In this document: piece by piece, positions 1,024-55,669 of the stretch
Layout: every line of letters starts with the position of its first letter
How positions within the stretch are numbered: position 1 is the stretch's first letter
Origin: Sphaerochaeta sp.
Lineage (GTDB): Bacteria > Spirochaetota > Spirochaetia > Sphaerochaetales > Sphaerochaetaceae
NCBI GenBank assembly: GCA_018399495.1
Contig: JAGYOG010000007.1
Location: 1 to 64,000, forward strand
Direction: 5' to 3'
DNA length: 64,000 nucleotides
Made by a program: the position numbers and the translations under genes
Notes under the pieces: model-generated
What the model was told of the DNA's origin: nothing
Databases searched by the model: none
Seen by the model: the letters and a program-made list of their open reading frames with translations, nothing else

Positions 1024-3069
1024 ATGAACAGATTATATCAATGTTCACGCTGGCTTTGGATTCCCCTTCTTTGTTGCTACATATGTTTTACCTTGGGGGG
1101 ATGCAAAGAAGAGAGCGCAGGTCGCTCCTCCTTGCATGTAAGCATGGAGAAAAAGCCTGAAACACAGAAAACCTTGTTGCCAAATGACACTCCCCTGGAA
1201 GTGTCTCGCTACGTAGTGGAAGGTGAAGGGCCCCAGGATACCACCTTCAGTATCATGTCCAATACCAATACCGTTGATGTGGATGGCCTCTTGATCGGCA
1301 ATTGGGACATTACGGCTGTGGGACGAAACGATCAAGGTGTCGATCTCGTTACTGGTTCTGTTTCGATCAACCTCACAAAGGATCCCTTGGAGACTGTCAT
1401 TGAACTGGGTGCACTCAGTGGAAACGGAATGATGGATGTAATTCTCCAGTGGGATGCAAGCAAGATCAACAACCCCAACTTGGAGATATGGCTGACCAAT
1501 CCAGAGGGAACTACCACTTCTCTCACACCCACAACAAACAACATGGAAAACGGTTCGGTCATCTTCAACGGCTCCTATCCTGCAGGCTCCTACTTACTGA
1601 GAGCTAAGCTGTACAGCGGAGCAACAGCGGTTGCTGGATGTGCTGAAGTAATTAGGGTGGTAGGAAACAAAACCACTGAGGGATCTGTTGAATTAACATT
1701 GGACAAGTACGCAGATATTCCAGCGACCATTACCTTGGTAAACAACCTGGGGGTACCCGTTGAGTGCAGCATCCAAGGAGTCAGTGAAGTCATGCAGGCA
1801 CAAGTACCTGCAACAGCAACACTCTCTGTAGGAGACGCAACAGAATTGGAAGTGAGTTGGTACCTCGATGGGGAGGAAATCAGCAATACCCTCTCCTGTA
1901 CATTCAACCCCGAGAGCGGACAACATCGCTTGGATGTCATTGCAAAAGGAGCACTTCTGGCTAGTACTGGGTCGGCCAGCATCACTTTCAAAGCCGCCGT
2001 CGAGGGAACCACAGGAGTTCCCAAACTCGTCGGATTGGTAGAGGACACTACCAATGGCTTATATGTCGGAAAGAATGCACATGTCGCATTCTTGCCTGAT
2101 GGAAAGTTGGTGCTGGCCAGTAATCAACATCAGACCATTCAAGTCTGTAGGATTGTCCGTGATACCCTGGAAGTGGTTAACACCTATACCACATCTGATG
2201 GCTTCAATGCAGCTCAGGTGACTGATGTATTTGTCGATCCGCTTACAAAACTTGTTGCCATTGCTGATGCAAGTATACCGAGCTTATGCGTCTACTTGTA
2301 TGATTCAAAGACCGCAACGCTCAGCAAACAGTTTGAACGAAACAACACCTACTTCCAGAACAGCAGTTCAAGCAAAACCTTCACAAGCTTGCATCATTTG
2401 AGCAAGGAGGCAAGCACAGGGATACTTTACGCATTGATTCCTGATGCTTCCCATGTGGTGGAGACAAACCTGTATGCGCAGACTTCAGAAAGTGCTGACC
2501 CCAATGAGTATGTCTGGTGGTTCTCCAATCCGCCTGTCTTTGATGCCATGGCAATCTCAGAAGGATCACAGAGTGCCGCATTGGCAGACACCGGGACTGG
2601 ATTCCTCAAACTCTGCCGGAAGAACACCATGGACGATTTGTTTGCACAGGATGAACACTTTCAGAGCGCTGACACCCCCTATCTGGACAATATTGCTTCC
2701 ATGGCATTCCTTAACGATGATCAACTCATCTATGCAACCAATAACGATATTGGCAGGTTCGCCTATAACGGTACCTTGTGGGCCCAGAAGGAAATCTTCA
2801 CCTCAATGCAAAACGATATAGGAGAGATGGAGGCAATCTCACAGCTACTCACCAATGAAGATGACACAATGCTTTATGTATTGGCAAAAACCAGTAAGAA
2901 CATTGTCTCTTTCTCAGTTGATGGTTTTGGGAGACCTCTGTTCCTAGAAAGCAGTACCCTCGGAGATTTTGCTCCGGCGAGAATGGATCTTTCACCCAGT
3001 GAAGAACATCTTGCCATTGTTTCTGACACCAGTGATTCCCTAGTCTTGTGTGCCATTCCTCAAGTCTAG
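1024..3069 (+). CDS. Lipoprotein with Ig-like and beta-propeller-like regions
   Basis: The product is about 681 residues. The N-terminus (MNRLYQCSRW...) has a hydrophobic stretch ending in a lipobox LGGC, so the mature protein is probably a lipid-anchored envelope protein. The middle part has beta-rich stretches resembling Ig-like folds. The C-terminal half has repeated segments such as DGKLVLASNQ and NDDQLIYATNN, typical of WD40/YVTN-like propellers. ATG at 1024 is chosen because GGTGGAGG lies just upstream; a TTG at 1009 would extend the frame. No specific family is recognised. It is followed by two hairpins that separate it from the convergent hydrogenase operon. Confidence 0.75.
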   Translation: MNRLYQCSRWLWIPLLCCYICFTLGGCKEESAGRSSLHVSMEKKPETQKTLLPNDTPLEVSRYVVEGEGPQDTTFSIMSNTNTVDVDGLLIGNWDITAVGRNDQGVDLVTGSVSINLTKDPLETVIELGALSGNGMMDVILQWDASKINNPNLEIWLTNPEGTTTSLTPTTNNMENGSVIFNGSYPAGSYLLRAKLYSGATAVAGCAEVIRVVGNKTTEGSVELTLDKYADIPATITLVNNLGVPVECSIQGVSEVMQAQVPATATLSVGDATELEVSWYLDGEEISNTLSCTFNPESGQHRLDVIAKGALLASTGSASITFKAAVEGTTGVPKLVGLVEDTTNGLYVGKNAHVAFLPDGKLVLASNQHQTIQVCRIVRDTLEVVNTYTTSDGFNAAQVTDVFVDPLTKLVAIADASIPSLCVYLYDSKTATLSKQFERNNTYFQNSSSSKTFTSLHHLSKEASTGILYALIPDASHVVETNLYAQTSESADPNEYVWWFSNPPVFDAMAISEGSQSAALADTGTGFLKLCRKNTMDDLFAQDEHFQSADTPYLDNIASMAFLNDDQLIYATNNDIGRFAYNGTLWAQKEIFTSMQNDIGEMEAISQLLTNEDDTMLYVLAKTSKNIVSFSVDGFGRPLFLESSTLGDFAPARMDLSPSEEHLAIVSDTSDSLVLCAIPQV

Positions 3070-3087
3070 TAATTACAATGTTGAGGT

Positions 3088-3119
3088 AAACAAGACCCGG
3101 AATAATCCGGGTCTTGTTT
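3088..3119. terminator. Strong hairpin between convergent genes
   Basis: AAACAAGACCCGG and CCGGGTCTTGTTT form a 13-bp perfect stem with a 6-base loop, flanked by A- and T-rich ends. It can act as a bidirectional terminator for the lipoprotein gene and for the hydrogenase operon. Confidence 0.8.
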
Positions 3120-3129
3120 GCATAATAAT

Positions 3130-3152
3130 GCCCGGTTTGTCGGGAACCGGGC
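3130..3152. terminator. Second hairpin downstream of hydA
   Basis: GCCCGGTT (3130-3137) pairs with AACCGGGC (3145-3152) around a 7-base loop. It lies just downstream of the hydA stop on the minus strand and probably backs up the first terminator. Confidence 0.55.
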
Positions 3153-3173
3153 AAATTGGATACTGACCAACTA

Positions 3174-4922
3174 TCAAGCCTTGTAAACAGGTATCTTCTG
3201 ATAGGTTGTATGTAATAGGTGATGAGACTTCTTGCTGAGCGGCTTATCCAAGAACTCCTCGTACAGCTGCTTGATTGATTCGTTCTGGTGTGAACATCTG
3301 ACCTTGCTCTGCTTGTCATCAGCGTAGAGACCGGCAGCACGTTCTTTACGCAGGACGTCGGTTGCACCATAAGGCTGTCCGCCTCCAGCAATACAACCAC
3401 CGCGGCAAGCCATTACCTCGATGAACTCATACGGAGCCTGTTTGCCTTCAGCACGGGCAGCCCTGACCTCATCCAGCACTTCTGCAACATGGGAAAGACC
3501 ATGCACGACTGCTACACGAACCGGGGTTCCATCAAAGTCGACCGTACCCTTCTTGATCTCATCAAGACCACGTACCGCTTCAATTTCAACATTCTCCAAC
3601 TCTTTTCCAGTAACAACATGGTAGGCAGTACGAACCGCAGCTTCCATGACACCACCGGTAGCACCAAAGATGGTACCAGCACCAGAGTATTCACCAACCG
3701 GATTATCAGCTACCTCATCTTCAAGATGGAGGAAATCAATACCGGTTGCCTTAATCAAGCGGGCAAACTCACGGGTGGTAAGTACAAGATCTACATCCTG
3801 ATATCCACTAGAGCGCATACTCTCATCGCGGTATGCCTCATACTTCTTCGCAGTACACGGCATGATCGCAACGGTATACATCTTCGCTGGATCGATATTC
3901 TGTTTCTCAGCAGTATAGGTCTTTTCAATTGCTCCAACCATCTGCATCGGGCTCTTTGCACTGGAAACCATATCCAGAAGATCTGGATAGTACTTCTCCA
4001 CATAATCAACCCAAGCAGGACAGCAAGAAGTGAACTGAGGAAGAACTCCTCCCTTGGTCAAACGGTGCACCAATTCGCTTCCTTCTTCCATGATAGTAAG
4101 GTCGGCACCAAAATTGGTGTCATGCACAGCTGCAACGCCAAGTCTGCGAAGTGCAGCATAAATCTTACCAGTTGTGATTGTTCCTGCGGGAAGTCCAAAG
4201 GACTCAGAAAGTCCTACGCGGATTGAAGGAGCAATCTGAACAACCACCTGCTTCTCAGGATCAGCGACTGCTTCCTGGAAGGTAGCAGTCTCATCCTTCT
4301 CATAGATGGCTCCAACCGGGCAGTGTGCAGCACACTGACCACAACGAACACACGGGCTGTCCTCGAGTTGCAACATCGCAGCAGGAGCCATGCAAGTTCC
4401 ATCTCCACGCCCAATGAACTCAAGGGCAAAAACACCCTGTAAGTCCTGACAAACCTGAACACAACGTCCGCACTTGATACATTTTTCCGGGTCAAGCACG
4501 ATTGAAGCAGAAGAAGTATCCTTTGGCCTATCACTCAAGCGGACCTCAAAGGGTTGCTCACGAATTCCAAACTCTACTGCAAGCGCCTGCAATTCACACT
4601 CTCCATTACGGACACAGGTGAGACAGCTGGATGGGTGAGTGCTGAGGATCATCTCCAAGATGGTCTTACGTACCTTGAACAACTCCGGGTCGTGGGTGAT
4701 GATGCTCATATGCTCGGCAACCGGGGTTGCACAGGCTCTGAGGATCTTGGCACTACCCTCCTGTTTTACGATACACAGACCACATGAGCCAAACGGCTTG
4801 AGGTCTTCATGGTAGCAAAGAGTCGGAATTTTCACCCCGACCTTTCGGGCTGCAAGTAATATAGTGGTCCCCGCTTCAACCTCTACGGGAATGCCATTTA
4901 TCTTTAAATGTACGATACTCAA
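3174..4922 (-). CDS. hydA: [FeFe] hydrogenase catalytic subunit, NAD(P)-linked (HydA/HndD type)
   Basis: This 582-residue protein is the H2-evolving or H2-oxidising subunit of a multimeric cytoplasmic hydrogenase. Domains in order: a plant-type 2Fe-2S domain (Cys36, 47, 50, 64), a His-Cys3 4Fe-4S site (His96, Cys100, 103, 109) and a 2x4Fe-4S ferredoxin domain (Cys148-158 and 191-201). The H-cluster domain follows, with motifs TSCCPAW (about 298), MPCTAKK (about 355) and MACRGGC (about 504), and a small-subunit-like tail. All H-cluster ligands are present. It is the last gene of a five-gene operon with NuoE- and NuoF-like partners. This matches the electron-bifurcating HydABC or NADP-reducing HndABCD arrangement; which of the two cannot be told here. 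Maturases HydEFG are not in the window. Confidence 0.96.
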   Translation of the reverse strand: MSIVHLKINGIPVEVEAGTTILLAARKVGVKIPTLCYHEDLKPFGSCGLCIVKQEGSAKILRACATPVAEHMSIITHDPELFKVRKTILEMILSTHPSSCLTCVRNGECELQALAVEFGIREQPFEVRLSDRPKDTSSASIVLDPEKCIKCGRCVQVCQDLQGVFALEFIGRGDGTCMAPAAMLQLEDSPCVRCGQCAAHCPVGAIYEKDETATFQEAVADPEKQVVVQIAPSIRVGLSESFGLPAGTITTGKIYAALRRLGVAAVHDTNFGADLTIMEEGSELVHRLTKGGVLPQFTSCCPAWVDYVEKYYPDLLDMVSSAKSPMQMVGAIEKTYTAEKQNIDPAKMYTVAIMPCTAKKYEAYRDESMRSSGYQDVDLVLTTREFARLIKATGIDFLHLEDEVADNPVGEYSGAGTIFGATGGVMEAAVRTAYHVVTGKELENVEIEAVRGLDEIKKGTVDFDGTPVRVAVVHGLSHVAEVLDEVRAARAEGKQAPYEFIEVMACRGGCIAGGGQPYGATDVLRKERAAGLYADDKQSKVRCSHQNESIKQLYEEFLDKPLSKKSHHLLHTTYQKIPVYKA

Positions 4923-4943
4923 TTGATTCCTCCTAACCTGATC

Positions 4944-6731
4944 CTAGTGGATTTCAACAGCGCCGAACTTACAAGTTTCCATACATACACCACACTTGAT
5001 ACAGAGGGACTGGTCAATGATGTGAACTTGCTTTCTTTCGCCAGAGATTGCTGCGACTGGACACTTTCGTGCACAAGCCGTACAACCGATACATTTCTCG
5101 GGATTGATTGAGTACCTAACCAACTTCTTACAGGTACCACTGGGACAGGTCTTATCCACAATGTGGGCTATATACTCATCCTTGAAATGCTTGATCGTTG
5201 ATAAAACCGGATTGGGAGCGGTCTGTCCCAAAGCACACAAGGATCCTTTTCTCATTGCCTCCCCGATGGTCTCAAGTGTATCCAAGTCCTGTAATGTACC
5301 ATTTCCTGAGGTAATCTTCTCCAGGATATTGGTCAAAGACCGGCCCCCGATTCTACACGGTGCACATTTTCCACAAGATTCATCAACAGTAAAGTTCAAA
5401 TAGAACTTTGCTACGTCGACAATGCAGTCATCCTCATCCATGACGATCATACCACCGCTTCCCATCATGGAACCAATTCTGACCAAGGAACCGAAATCAA
5501 TCGGAGTATCCAGTTCAGCCTCGGTGATAACACCACCGGAAGGACCACCAGTCTGTACTGCCTTGAACTTCTTATTGTTGGCAATTCCTCCACCGATGTC
5601 GTAGACAATCTCACGAAGGGTGGTCCCCATCGGGACTTCTACCAAACCGGAGTTGCGAATCTTACCAGTAAGAGCAAAGACCTTGGTACCACTGCTGTCG
5701 TGAGTTCCAATCTTACTGAACCAATTGCCACCCTTGGTCATGATGACTGGGATATTCGCCCAAGTCTCAACGTTGTTGATGACAGTTGGTCTACCCCACA
5801 AACCCTTTACAGCAGGGAAAGGAGGACGTGGCTGCGGCATACCGCGTTTGCCTTCGATTGATTGCAGGAGTGCAGTCTCTTCTCCACAGACAAAGGCACC
5901 TGCTCCGAGGCGGATCTCAATATCAAAATCAAAACCACTGCCAAGGATATTCTCACCAAGAAGGCCGTATTCACGAGCCTGCTGCATGGCAATCTCAAGA
6001 CGGTGGATAGCCAAGGGATACTCTGCACGAATGTAGATGAATCCTTTGGTTGCACCAATCGTCTTTCCACATATGGTCATAGCTTCAAGCACGCTGTGCG
6101 GATCACCTTCAAGTGTTGAGCGGTCCATGTAGGCACCCGGGTCACCTTCATCAGCATTACAGACGACATACTTGACGTCATCCTCTACCTGGCGGGAGAA
6201 ATTCCACTTCATCCATGTAGGAAAACCAGCCCCTCCGCGACCACGGAGGCCTGCAGTCTTCAACTCTTCAATGATGTCCTCGCTGGTCATCTCAAAGAGA
6301 GCTTTCTCCAAGCCCTGATACCCTTCACGGGCGATATATTCGTCAATATTCTCCGGATCAATGAATCCACAGTTGCGTAGTACAATCCTGAACTGCTTCT
6401 GGTAAAATTTGATATCCTCTACCCTTGCATTCTTCCGGCTTGATTCTTTGTCATACAACAGTCGGGTAACTTCACGACCCTTGAGGATATGCTCACTGAT
6501 AAGTTCCTTGGCATCCTCGGGTTTGACTTTTACATAAAAGGAGTCTTCGGGAAGGATCTTTACAATCGGTCCCTGCTCACAAAAACCGAAACAACCGGTC
6601 TTTACAATCTGTACCTCGTCAGCAACTCCCTGAGCTTTGCACTCCTCTAAGAGGTTCTGGTAAATCTGGTCCGCATGGCTCGATTCACAAGCAGTTCCTC
6701 CACAGACCAAAATGTAGTTTCTGAACGCCAT
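4944..6731 (-). CDS. hydB: NuoF-like flavoprotein subunit of the [FeFe] hydrogenase (HydB/HndC type)
   Basis: The 595-residue protein carries FMN, binds NAD(P)H and passes electrons to HydA. It has an N-terminal thioredoxin-like 2Fe-2S domain (Cys10, 15, 47, 51) and the FMN/NADH-binding NuoF core with GRGGAGFPT at 164-172. An SLBB region and the N3-type 4Fe-4S site (Cys453, 456, 459, 499) follow. It ends in a C-terminal 2x4Fe-4S ferredoxin domain (Cys547-557 and 577-587). The extra N- and C-terminal cluster domains distinguish it from complex I NuoF. Its start codon overlaps the stop of the upstream 2Fe-2S gene by one base (TAATG), which implies translational coupling. Confidence 0.95.
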   Translation of the reverse strand: MAFRNYILVCGGTACESSHADQIYQNLLEECKAQGVADEVQIVKTGCFGFCEQGPIVKILPEDSFYVKVKPEDAKELISEHILKGREVTRLLYDKESSRKNARVEDIKFYQKQFRIVLRNCGFIDPENIDEYIAREGYQGLEKALFEMTSEDIIEELKTAGLRGRGGAGFPTWMKWNFSRQVEDDVKYVVCNADEGDPGAYMDRSTLEGDPHSVLEAMTICGKTIGATKGFIYIRAEYPLAIHRLEIAMQQAREYGLLGENILGSGFDFDIEIRLGAGAFVCGEETALLQSIEGKRGMPQPRPPFPAVKGLWGRPTVINNVETWANIPVIMTKGGNWFSKIGTHDSSGTKVFALTGKIRNSGLVEVPMGTTLREIVYDIGGGIANNKKFKAVQTGGPSGGVITEAELDTPIDFGSLVRIGSMMGSGGMIVMDEDDCIVDVAKFYLNFTVDESCGKCAPCRIGGRSLTNILEKITSGNGTLQDLDTLETIGEAMRKGSLCALGQTAPNPVLSTIKHFKDEYIAHIVDKTCPSGTCKKLVRYSINPEKCIGCTACARKCPVAAISGERKQVHIIDQSLCIKCGVCMETCKFGAVEIH

Positions 6732-19945: not shown

Positions 19946-20013
19946 TGATGGGGAAGGCGATCTGGGTGTGATCCCTATGGTTGAGTCGTAAATCTGATTT
20001 TGTGTTCATGGAT

Positions 20014-20089
20014 TGTGACAGTTTACCTGAACTTAAGATCGCGTTATTCGCAGTTCAGAGCTAATGCCGGTTTCTGAGAAAATGTGACA
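20014..20089. repeat. Repeat-rich segment, possible end of a lost insertion sequence
   Basis: TGTGACA occurs as a direct repeat at 20014-20020 and 20083-20089. Between them CTGAACT (20027-20033) and AGTTCAG (20052-20058) are inverted, and GCG/CGC is nested inside. It begins where similarity to the helicase remnant stops. Multiple short repeats are typical of IS21-type ends, but no transposase remains. Confidence 0.3.
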
Positions 20090-20103
20090 ATTCTTCCTGG
20101 TAC

Positions 20104-20474
20104 TGAGGTACCTGAGGGGCTGACGAGTGAGCATTTCTCCATAGACAGCAGTTATCTGGTGAGGAAGTGGTTCCTATCGAGGAAGTATTTACGAGATAGG
20201 GGTCAAGAGATGTGCCAGATGGATGCGATACGCTTCGGAAGGGCTTGAACATACTCCATCCCCATTGAAAGCCCACTTTCTCCCTGGTTCAACTATCTCG
20301 AGAGAATCTTCTTGCTCCCGATAGGTATTTGCTGTCGAGGTTGCCTTCATGATCTTTATAGGTGACATCAAGGCAGTTGATCCCCACCATTTGGTCTGTA
20401 CCCTATTCCTACATCACGATGGGGAATCAAGTTCCTTACCATGCTTCCGGGTTTATGTCTTCGAGATGAGTCAT
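20104..20474 (-). pseudogene. 5' stub of a SNF2-family helicase gene (COG0553-like)
   Basis: An ATG at 20474 with GGAG five bases upstream begins MTHLEDINPEA. Passing through frameshifts the pieces read LIPHRDVGI, MVGINCLDVTYKDHEGN, LEIVEPGRKWAFNGDG, SEAYRIHLAHLL and [21 protein letters not shown]. In intact proteins of this type the next motif is the Walker A segment LADDPGAGKT, which is missing here. The order and wording match the N-terminus of large SNF2/HepA-like helicases that often sit in defence or modification islands; this is from memory, not a search. Only about 125 of roughly 1000 codons remain. Confidence 0.65.
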
Positions 20475-20859
20475 CACTACTCCAATTAGTAAAATTGTTC
20501 TTACAATCCTCAATCAAAAGCGTAACATAGCCGCCTTTGTCAGAAAAGCTGGTATTCTGTATTTCCAATCACCCTTCATAATACCCTCAAATTGGCATCA
20601 TAGGGGAATTTAAATGTGGCTAAAAGCTTATGTAACCTAGGACCTACGCATTAAACCCATCTCATACGACATTCCCAGCATACGCTTTCAGGGTTATCGA
20701 GGCCGTCAGAGGCTTGTATGAAACCAATTTATGAGGTGTTTTGGAGATTTACGGGTGCATAAGGATAACCCAGGACATACCAGGAGATCCACTGTCCTGG
20801 TGGATCCCCATCTGTCCATGGCCTTGGCGCACTTTCGGTTAAGTAGTCTTTCTCGGTAT

Positions 20860-22182
20860 AATCTCCACAGATTTCGCGAAGGTGAGAGTGGGTCCATCAG
20901 CGTCAGCGCTTGGGACATGGCATCGTTGAAGTTCCAGCCGAAGATTTTCCTCAGCCTTTTCTTGCTGATCTTCTGTGTTCCCCCTATGAGGTCGCTCATC
21001 TTCTTGTACAGTGAGAGACATGCCTTGTTTACAATATGCTCTGGTTGAGGCTGCATTCCTGTCACTCAGGGCCATGTCATCCTCGCGAAAGGTCGTATCA
21101 AGGTTCCAGTGCGGTTGCTCATTAAAATATTTTTCGCATAAAATCATCCAATGGGAACGTATGCAATGAGCTGCATCTGAGATGTCCTTCAGGCTGGTAA
21201 GATAGTAACGGGCCTCGTTCACCTCTTTTCCGGTAACGTTGTGGATCATCGTCTTGACCATGCATACCACAGAGAAGACCTTCTTCCACTCCGAAAACAG
21301 CCCTTTCTTCTCGCTTGAGGTCAGTGGGTAGAGATAAAAGGATCTCTGCTCGAGCTGGTTGTGGCTGATCTCACTCGTCATATGGTAGCAACCATCAATA
21401 CTCTTGAGCTTCTCCTTATTCTCTTCCGTAAATAGTGTCTTGGCAAATTCAGTGGCTTTCCCCTGGTTACCCTTCAGGCCCCCTATATAGTCACCTTTTG
21501 ACTCGGCAATGATGCTGATGGTCTTGGTTTGCATATGCATGGCATCGAAGGTGACCACAGTGTCCTTGAGGTTCATCCTTGCGAGAATCTTCTGGGCATG
21601 AGGGATTTCATTTGTCTTGGATTCTATCGCCTCGGAGAAGAGACAGGTTTCCGTATCCTGCTCATATATATTGAGAATCTGCAGGTCTTTGATCTCTTGC
21701 TCTGTGTCTGCCTTGCGCCCTGTGCCCCTGAGTTGCTTGCCATCCACCGACACTATCCTTTTGGGAGGGGTCGGTAGTTTCAGCGCCTTCCTGATTGCTG
21801 TATCCGAATTGTGCAATACGCTTACCAGCAATGCATTGAGCTCCTCGGCCCTGATGATGGAGAGGACTCTCCTGAATGTATCGTGGCTGGGGATGGTCTC
21901 CTTGCCGAACAGGCGCCTGTAGAGCTTGGCGTTGCTCATCCAGAAATCCTGTGTGGACAGGCAGCTCTCAGATCCGGCCAGCGTGGCGAGAAACAGCATG
22001 AGGATGACCTCACCAAGCGGGTAGATAGTCCGTCCCTGGACCCTGCAGTCGGGTACATCTCCAAACAGTTTCAGTATCTTCTTTAGTATCCGGATCCTCG
22101 TCTCATTGCCTGCATCCTTTACCTTGATGGTGCTGGAAGACTGGAAATCCTCGATTTGCATCTTCAGTGTCTCAAACTTCAT
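20860..22182 (-). pseudogene. ISAs1-family transposase, frameshifted near its C-terminus
   Basis: The start MKFETLKMQIEDFQSS has GGAGG upstream. Visible family motifs are IVSVDGKQLRGTGRK, VVTFDAMHMQTKT (Asp residues of the DDE triad), CIRSHW and HWNLDTTFREDDMALSDRNAA. At about 21040-21060 the frame shifts, and the true C-terminus continues in another frame as NKACLSLYKKMSDLIGG and KISKKRLRKIFGWNF. The uninterrupted frame runs to 20839 with an unrelated tail. The protein is probably non-functional unless frameshifting is programmed. The end at 20860 is approximate. Confidence 0.8.
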
Positions 22183-22807
22183 GATGGGAGCCTCCAAGTT
22201 CAAACGGTATCGAATGCTTCGTGCCAAGATGCTTCAGCCGCTCGGATATATCCGAAAGATGCCACCCCCCGTTCACATGCACGGCATACAGGTTTGAAGA
22301 AAGTGCAAGCATCTCACCAAAATCAGGCCCAAGGCGGTCTCTCAGCTTCGACTCGACCTGTCGTCTCATGATTGGGAGGTATTGCTCCTCTCCCTTCGTC
22401 AAGGTCCTGTTCAAATCTATTTCAGGAAACAGTATGGAAAACCAGCTGCCTTCATGTCCAAGCTGGTTTTCTTTGCCCTCTATGCCAAGGGCTGCCTTCA
22501 TCAGCAGGAGATCTGCATCGAGGCCGAGCCTCTTGGGATGCTTGGTCAGCACTCTGCATGAGGTTTCGACGATATGGCAGAACCCATAGCGGAGGACCCT
22601 GATTGCAGGCTTGACTGGCGGTCTCGATGGCACAAGCCCTTCCTGTTCGGTGACAATCCCCAGGTATTCGTCACAACGGAATACCGGGTAGCTCTTTCCT
22701 GGCACCCGCTCTGAATGGCCCCGATACAGGGCGTACCCATGCTTGGTCTTTTTCGTATAGATTCCCTTGGTCTTGTACTTGAGAACCCAATCAGGCAATG
22801 GGGGCAT
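22172..22807 (-). CDS. Unrecognised first ORF of the ISAs1-like element
   Basis: The 211-residue product starts MPPLPDWVLKYKTKG, with AGGAG upstream in the region shared with the MITE. It contains GYALYRGHSERVPGKSYPVF and CDEYLGIVTEQEGLVP, reminiscent of N-terminal parts of some DDE transposases, and is otherwise unfamiliar. Its stop overlaps the transposase start by 11 bases, which suggests coupled translation. It lies inside the terminal repeats, so it is cargo or an accessory transposition protein. Ordinary ISAs1 elements have only the transposase gene. Confidence 0.6.
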   Translation of the reverse strand: MPPLPDWVLKYKTKGIYTKKTKHGYALYRGHSERVPGKSYPVFRCDEYLGIVTEQEGLVPSRPPVKPAIRVLRYGFCHIVETSCRVLTKHPKRLGLDADLLLMKAALGIEGKENQLGHEGSWFSILFPEIDLNRTLTKGEEQYLPIMRRQVESKLRDRLGPDFGEMLALSSNLYAVHVNGGWHLSDISERLKHLGTKHSIPFELGGSHHEV

Positions 22808-23096
22808 GGTGTGAATCTCCTGTATTAAGTGCAGTTTAATACTCTGTAAAAAGAAAAGCAAGAGAAAAAGTGAATCCACCCTCAAAAATGAGGTTCCCCT
22901 CAACTTTTTCATCTTGCTTGTATGCTTGCATCACAACAAGTTGTCATTCATTTCCAACTATTTGGTGCGTAACTCCTACATCTCCAGATGCGCTGAGATA
23001 TTTTTTATTCCTCAACGGAGCGAGGGTATTTTTTGTAATATAATCAATTGCTTGTGTCTTTTTAAGACACTTGATTCTCGAGCGAGTGCAGGAAAA

Positions 23097-55453: not shown

Positions 55454-55669
55454 TAGGAGTTACGCATAAAATGGTTGAAAGCGAGTGACAATTGGTTGCA
55501 CTACAAGCATAAGAGCAAGACGAGAAAGTCGAGAGAAACCTCATTTTGAGGCAGAATTCGCTTTTTCTCTTGCTTTTCTTTTGCCGTATATTAATCTTTA
55601 CTTAATACATTCGATGCCATGCATATGCCCGTAGGCATCTGTCAAGAAGAGTTTAGTGCGTATGTCCTA
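55454..55669. mobile_element. 216-bp MITE derived from the ISAs1-like element
   Basis: The left end TAGGAGTTACGCATAAA and the right end (read inward on the minus strand) TAGGACATACGCACTAAA match the ends of the 20638-22978 element. The left ~165 bp align with that element's left leader, and the last 19 bp match its right end at 17 of 19 positions. Flanks AGACTCTAGT (55444-55453) and AGTCTCTAGT (55670-55679) form a 10-bp target duplication with one mismatch. There is no ORF. Confidence 0.8.

Follow-up and report, generated by a model that had tools for sequence, protein, structure and literature searches.

A two-gene subgroup of ISAs1-type elements with a gene for a core-less relative of IS1634-type transposases

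Introduction

ISAs1 elements contain a single open reading frame (ORF) in about 1.2-1.5 kb, usually generate target duplications of 8-10 bp and are treated as a one-gene family. Among other transposable elements, InsA of IS1, OrfA of IS3 and Inh of Tn5 are parts of the element's own transposase, produced via frameshifting or from an internal start, and the truncated products Tn5 Inh and IS1 InsA act as brakes or repressors. In eukaryotes, PIF/Harbinger transposons combine a transposase with a separately encoded, Myb-like DNA-binding helper protein.

We focus here on an ISAs1-type element that carries two genes, located in a 64,000-nucleotide stretch of DNA (the window) from Sphaerochaeta sp. 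(assembly GCA_018399495.1, contig JAGYOG010000007.1, positions 1 to 64,000). No description of a two-gene ISAs1 subgroup was found in the literature searched, which takes in the ISAs1 passages of PMC11092175 and PMC3281130, with ISfinder and many subscription papers lying outside it.

The element in the window and its intact relatives

The element lies on the minus strand at 20638-22978 and is 2341 bp long. Its features, together with those of a small derivative elsewhere in the window, are as follows.

20638-22978, minus strand: decayed two-gene ISAs1-type element, 93.0% identical (ungapped columns, whole length) to an intact 2316-bp copy in genome G544
22961-22978, minus strand: terminal inverted repeat on the ORF side, TAGGAGTTACGCACCAAA, the same in all four G544 copies
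20638-20655, minus strand: terminal inverted repeat on the 3' side of the transposase, TAGGACCTACGCATTAAA read inward
22808-22978, minus strand: leader, from the left end to the ORF, with a homologous stretch in the MITE-like derivative
22822-22842, minus strand: palindrome GTATTAA-N7-TTAATAC, directly upstream of the SD of the ORF, candidate operator
22172-22807, minus strand: 211-aa ORF, core-less relative of IS1634-type transposases, proposed scaffold or DNA-binding subunit
20839-22182, minus strand: degenerate ISAs1 transposase frame, 447 aa from the ATG at 22182
21112-21141, minus strand: 30-bp sequence replacing 12 bp at the HWxIEN codons, resembling the end of a trio-recombinase element
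55454-55669, minus strand: MITE-like 216-bp derivative with leader and ends in common with the element, and a 10-bp duplication with one mismatch

The two ends, TAGGAGTTACGCACCAAA and TAGGACCTACGCATTAAA, match at 14 of 18 positions. Counted from the ATG that has an SD, the ORF encodes 211 aa; with the earliest ATG in the open frame as its start, it would encode 246 aa. An earlier note on this DNA had placed the ORF inside the inverted repeats and overlapping the transposase start, and had reported that the leader is kept in a MITE. Both statements are borne out, the sequence and ORFs being as described: the ORF runs from 22807 to 22172, the transposase ATG at 22182 overlaps its end by 11 nt, and the leader and the MITE (flanked by ACTAGAGACT/ACTAGAGTCT) share 79% identity over 158 bp. 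Used as a query against the source assembly, the MITE matched only itself and the leader of the element, and is thus single-copy there; no other full copy of the whole element is present in the 92 contigs of that assembly.

The window transposase contains PF13808 (DDE_Tnp_1_assoc) followed by PF01609 (DDE_Tnp_1) and scores 204.3 bits with the ISAs1 model NF033564 (cut-off 70 bits), compared with 230.4 in G544, 247.8 in L006 and 208.5 in L007. Residues D147, D213 and E348, conserved in the transposase alignment (A8), are read here as the DDE triad.

Intact copies are available from G544, a genome of the same genus, which contains four near-identical copies of 2316 bp, every one of them with the ORF. 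Both the ORF and a full transposase lie within the inverted repeats, and the copies are flanked by exact 10-bp target duplications in three cases (CGTGAATTGC, CTACATCCCC and AATTGAGTTG) and by a 9-bp duplication, ATCGATGGA, in the fourth. A more distant element, L047, is 2252 bp long, with a perfect 16-bp repeat, CAGGACAAACGCATGA, and a 10-bp duplication, CCAATGCACA. Within the reach of the scan, no convincing combination of repeat and duplication was found for eight other pairs (L048, L053, L055, L044, L060, L056, L052 and L059) or for L030; several of these run to a contig end. Inverted repeats together with duplications are thus found in the G544 copies and L047, and repeats only in the window copy. 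Measured likewise, three ordinary ISAs1 elements are 1.16-1.33 kb long and the two-gene elements 2.25-2.34 kb. Since they carry two ORFs in 2.25-2.34 kb in place of a single ORF in about 1.2-1.5 kb, we place them as a variant ISAs1 subgroup and not as ordinary members.

Homology and conservation of the ORF protein

A profile of the ORF protein scores up to 102 bits on single chains of the IS1634 type, aligning over residues 2-157; profile-profile comparison of this N-terminal part gives an E-value of 2.7e-23. Residues at about 165-202 are placed on the last ~40 residues of several IS1634-type chains; for this tail, profile-profile comparison gives an E-value of 3.8e-5 (template columns 429-509 of 524), or 2.1e-7 when the tails alone are compared. 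Single sequences yield weak matches for the C-terminal tail, of 8 bits or less. In a further search of this kind 14 of 29 chains gave a match, seven of them at most 25 residues from the chain end and seven elsewhere, against 15 of 230 matches near the chain end in a shuffle control, the chains being mutually related. Because individual sequences match only weakly in the tail, this part is taken as the weaker half of the homology.

Among 17 members of the ORF family, no DDE match from Pfam or NCBIfam was obtained, and the helical domain passes straight to the tail. The AlphaFold model of the ORF protein (pLDDT 91.2) has an order of helices and strands that fits an IS1634-type chain minus its DDE part; the model of the single chain is poor (pLDDT 54.7) and was used for this order only, as a hint. 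The profile alignments show homology of the N-terminal beta and helical domains, and on weaker evidence of a C-terminal hairpin-helix, to the flanks of the DDE core. Judged by this domain content, the 211-aa protein is not an IS1634 transposase, since the N-terminal part and the tail are present and the DDE core is not; the description that fits best is a core-less relative of IS1634-type transposases, well shown for the N-terminal half and less so for the tail.

The earlier note had called the ORF unrecognised. This stands insofar as none of the 17 members has a Pfam or NCBIfam family at useful E-values, but the relation to IS1634-type transposases without the DDE core was missed. PDB sequences and PHROGs gave nothing significant, two scans of viral contigs gave no relatives, and tblastn of two of the ORFs against plasmids gave no match. 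Fold searches of the PDB and BFVD returned nothing at E <=0.001, the best Foldseek hit having an E-value of 0.11 (PDB); in a second fold comparison with the PDB the best Z was 3.0, and arm-type integrase domains appeared at Z 2.0, which is too weak to rely on. With neither a PDB fold match nor a Pfam or NCBIfam family, the label 'DNA-binding' is taken from homology.

The ratio dN/dS against homologues is 0.09-0.29 in the eight of ten comparisons with computable dS, some of which have saturated dS. Judging from these ratios, the ORF is under purifying selection and is no chance frame.

A fused form, as the earlier note had proposed, does exist. In L069 the first ~70 residues of the ORF (40.7 bits) and an ISAs1 transposase (368.7 bits) form one chain, within ISAs1-type ends (15/18) and a 10-bp target duplication, GCATTTGGCT. 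It is the only clear fused element seen, and it ties the first domain of the ORF to transposition. In a Bacillales MAG (L061:3935-4858), one frame begins like the ORF, continues through a masked run and ends like ISAs1, and is possibly a second fused element.

Co-occurrence of the ORF and the transposase

A search with the single ORF sequence gave matches in three of 392 genomes of the phylum, and a profile search of 394 genomes of the class gave 18 matches in 12 genomes. Thirteen of the 18 are followed by an ISAs1 transposase (of which only the first bases are visible in G584); the other five are two ORFs at a contig end (G561 and G405), one 33-residue fragment and two N-termini of single-chain IS1634-type proteins (G313 and G413). 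Scanning a contig collection with the ORF gave 28 loci, of which 15 are pairs, some with a broken transposase; the remaining 13 comprise five single-chain IS1634-type loci, one single-chain ISAs1-type locus (L069), L061 and six that are cut or broken. The check that the earlier note had suggested, of the ORF protein beside ISAs1 transposases elsewhere, shows the pair recurring in Spirochaetota, Bacteroidota and Bacillota; the reach into the latter two, like the dead state of the window copy (see below), was missed in the earlier reading of the element. Single chains occur in Thermoplasmatota, WOR-3 and Methanoperedenaceae records. Six loci of the collection (L044, L047, L048, L049, L050 and L062) are apparently the same contigs as G371, G359, G417, G429, G585 and G561, so the phylum, class and contig-collection scans are not independent.

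Most pairs were collected through the ORF, which biases co-occurrence; a transposase-led profile search covers one class (394 genomes). This search gave 11 subgroup places above 350 bits. For ten of them the contig extends upstream of the transposase, and the ORF is there in every case, truncated by the contig start in G426:C118; the eleventh, in G586, begins at a contig end. Upstream of ordinary ISAs1 transposases (about 195-255 bits), the ORF was found at none of the 21 places examined, where the upstream DNA amounts to 381 nt in one and at least 840 nt in the rest. A second, distant transposase group with lower scores (G359:C226 and G426:C5) is accompanied by a diverged form of the ORF. The transposase tree has 29 rows, frames of less than 280 residues, L061 and L045 having been left out; all 18 pair rows fall on one side of a branch with weak support (78/34), and 16 of them are set apart by a branch that is 1.05 long and has 100/100 support.

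Where the DNA downstream can be read, full-length ORFs that stand alone precede an ISAs1 transposase or its remains, and every subgroup copy with readable upstream DNA has the ORF. A chromosomal ORF without the transposase, or copies without the ORF, had been named in the earlier note as findings that would speak against its reading, and neither was encountered in these searches; an ordinary chromosomal gene was rejected as an identity for the ORF, none having been seen. As the constant second gene of an ISAs1 subgroup (ten of ten against 0 of 21), the ORF suits the accessory transposition factor suggested in that note, a role that its product would probably fill.

Gene junction and leader palindrome

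The ATG of the transposase falls close to the ORF stop in most pairs, anywhere from ~13 nt ahead of it to a few nt past it, and is commonly accompanied by an SD. Exceptions are L051 and L060, which have gaps, and L050, which has no clear ATG at the ORF stop. A programmed frameshift joining the ORF and the transposase was rejected, because the frame of one relative to the other differs from element to element, and because the transposase has a start codon of its own.

Of 18 pair leaders, a set that includes close relatives, 12 have the sequence GTATTA-N3..12-TAATAC upstream of the ORF; it is absent from all 13 ordinary ISAs1 and all 29 single-chain IS1634-type leaders. The mean best palindrome arm match is 8.28 in pair leaders (shuffle maximum 7.17), 7.46 in ordinary ISAs1 (6.92) and 7.69 in the single-chain IS1634-type (7.03). 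The leader palindrome may be an operator, or alternatively an RNA hairpin or a promoter feature; a scan of the G544 leader for consensus promoters and terminators gave none. Several of the single-chain IS1634-type genes (L135-L163) also have strong palindromes directly before the start codon, with differing sequences (8 of 29 at p<=0.05).

Decay of the window copy and tyrosine-recombinase elements

Compared with an intact G544 copy, the window transposase carries a net 18-nt insertion that replaces the codons of the catalytic-Glu motif HWMIENSL, and indels of -1, +2 and +2 that shift about 46 codons out of frame, after which the correct frame resumes. The ORF is intact despite this damage. From these lesions, the window copy is dead, unable to move by itself. 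Comparison by eye of its flanks, TCTGGAGATG and GGTTACATAA, revealed no target-site duplication. The adjoining segment from a tRNA-like gene to the end of the element (19950-20637) contains short frames only and may be another decayed mobile element, which could account for the missing duplication.

The 30-bp insert at 21112-21141 looks like a terminal remnant of a trio-recombinase element, one that has three tyrosine recombinase genes. In G426:C118 (L102, about 1282-5378), an ISAs1 transposase is interrupted at the same motif, that of the catalytic Glu, by a ~4-kb element that has long inverted ends and carries a gene for a tyrosine recombinase, and on a contig of the source assembly itself (G000:C65, L043) three tyrosine recombinase genes adjoin an ISAs1 fragment. 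Recombinase elements at one ISAs1 motif in two genomes, along with the apparent 30-bp remnant, suggest that RIT-like elements insert site-specifically into ISAs1 transposase genes at the catalytic-Glu motif. RIT elements likewise have three recombinase genes, and one is known inside a transposase gene (PMC3414803). Elsewhere in the genome of the window (G000:C1, L037:2899-3132), 33 residues from the N-terminus of an ORF relative run on into unrelated sequence, a remnant of another element of the two-gene group.

A proposed two-protein transposase and its alternatives

Constant linkage, gene overlap, homology to transposase flanks, a fused form and purifying selection are all observed for the pair. 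We lean, by a modest degree, towards a two-protein transposase in which a core-less DNA-binding or scaffold subunit would be the obligatory partner of an ISAs1 catalytic subunit. The core-less protein would be made first, with the ISAs1 DDE transposase beginning at about the ORF stop, usually from its own SD. It would bind DNA at the element ends and/or at the palindrome of its own leader, would help the catalytic subunit to recognise or pair the ends, and may also control the operon via the palindrome. We infer this DNA binding, the contact with the ISAs1 enzyme and the positive role of the ORF protein from sequence comparison. More tentatively, and with rather less than even confidence, such a heteromeric transposase could have arisen by part-swapping between families, with an IS1634-type scaffold, its DDE core excised, working in trans with an ISAs1 subunit in several phyla.

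Being transposase-like but core-less, and having its gene in front of that of the enzyme, the ORF protein might instead act in trans as a brake on transposition or as its repressor, competing for the ends or assembling into inactive complexes, and conservation of the ORF could also be that of an inhibitor or regulator. We consider a brake unlikely: the protein's recognisable kin are IS1634-type proteins and not the transposase that it is encoded with, L069 joins its domain to the enzyme, and a pure brake would be expected to be lost often, yet all ten readable subgroup copies keep the ORF. This strict retention favours a needed partner, as brake-free copies should spread, although this is an argument and not a test. 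Quite unlikely, in our estimation, is a protein that is mainly an autoregulatory transcription factor, acting on GTATTA...TAATAC to set operon expression from outside the strand-transfer complex. The palindrome core, found in 12 of the 18 pair leaders and in 0 of 13 ordinary ISAs1 leaders, and the mean arm match of 8.28 against a shuffle maximum of 7.17 agree with such a factor, but palindromic leaders are over-represented in ordinary ISAs1 and single-chain IS1634-type genes too, and could therefore be a feature of RNA or promoters in general; nor would such a factor account for the L069 fusion.

That the ORF has no family or fold assignment would fit a passenger gene, with a role in host or element fitness unrelated to transposition. 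We regard this as improbable, since the ORF accompanies ten of ten subgroup transposases and none of the 21 ordinary ones, and since the homology to transposase flanks, the existence of a fusion, the overlap in translation and the strict pairing across divergent elements all argue against it. The window copy is itself decayed, as might be expected had a remnant of a second, decayed transposon been caught in one ISAs1 element, but this is refuted by the four near-identical G544 copies with target duplications, the dN/dS of 0.09-0.29 and the intact homologues in several phyla, and we give it practically no weight.

If the two-protein transposase is real, the two-gene subgroup and its engine-less transposase partner would, across several phyla, show multi-protein transposition machines arising from simpler ones by domain loss and partner exchange. 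With this description annotators gain a name for an ORF missed by Pfam and NCBIfam, and the copies in G544, apparently a young set, are suited to testing.

Comparison with known systems

The subgroup resembles ISAs1 in transposase family (NF033564 over the cut-off), in DDE_Tnp_1_assoc and DDE_Tnp_1 domains, in CAGGR/TAGGA-type ends and in duplications of 9-10 bp. It differs in having a second gene upstream of the transposase, in its length of 2.25-2.34 kb against 1.16-1.33 kb in three ordinary elements, and in its transposases, which form a divergent group in the tree. IS1634, on the other hand, shares with the ORF homologous N-terminal beta and helical domains and, more weakly, the C-terminal tail, whereas IS1634-type proteins are single chains with a DDE core and the ORF is without one. 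The two IS1634-type elements with readable ends, L064 and L039, have ends unlike these, and their candidate duplications are short (TTTAAT and TTAA). IS1 InsA, IS3 OrfA and Tn5 Inh are, like the ORF product, element-encoded, non-catalytic proteins derived from transposases; unlike them, the ORF is a separate gene related to another family. Finally, PIF/Harbinger provides a comparison of working principle, a transposase with a separate helper, for which no homology is claimed; the system is eukaryotic and its helper Myb-like.
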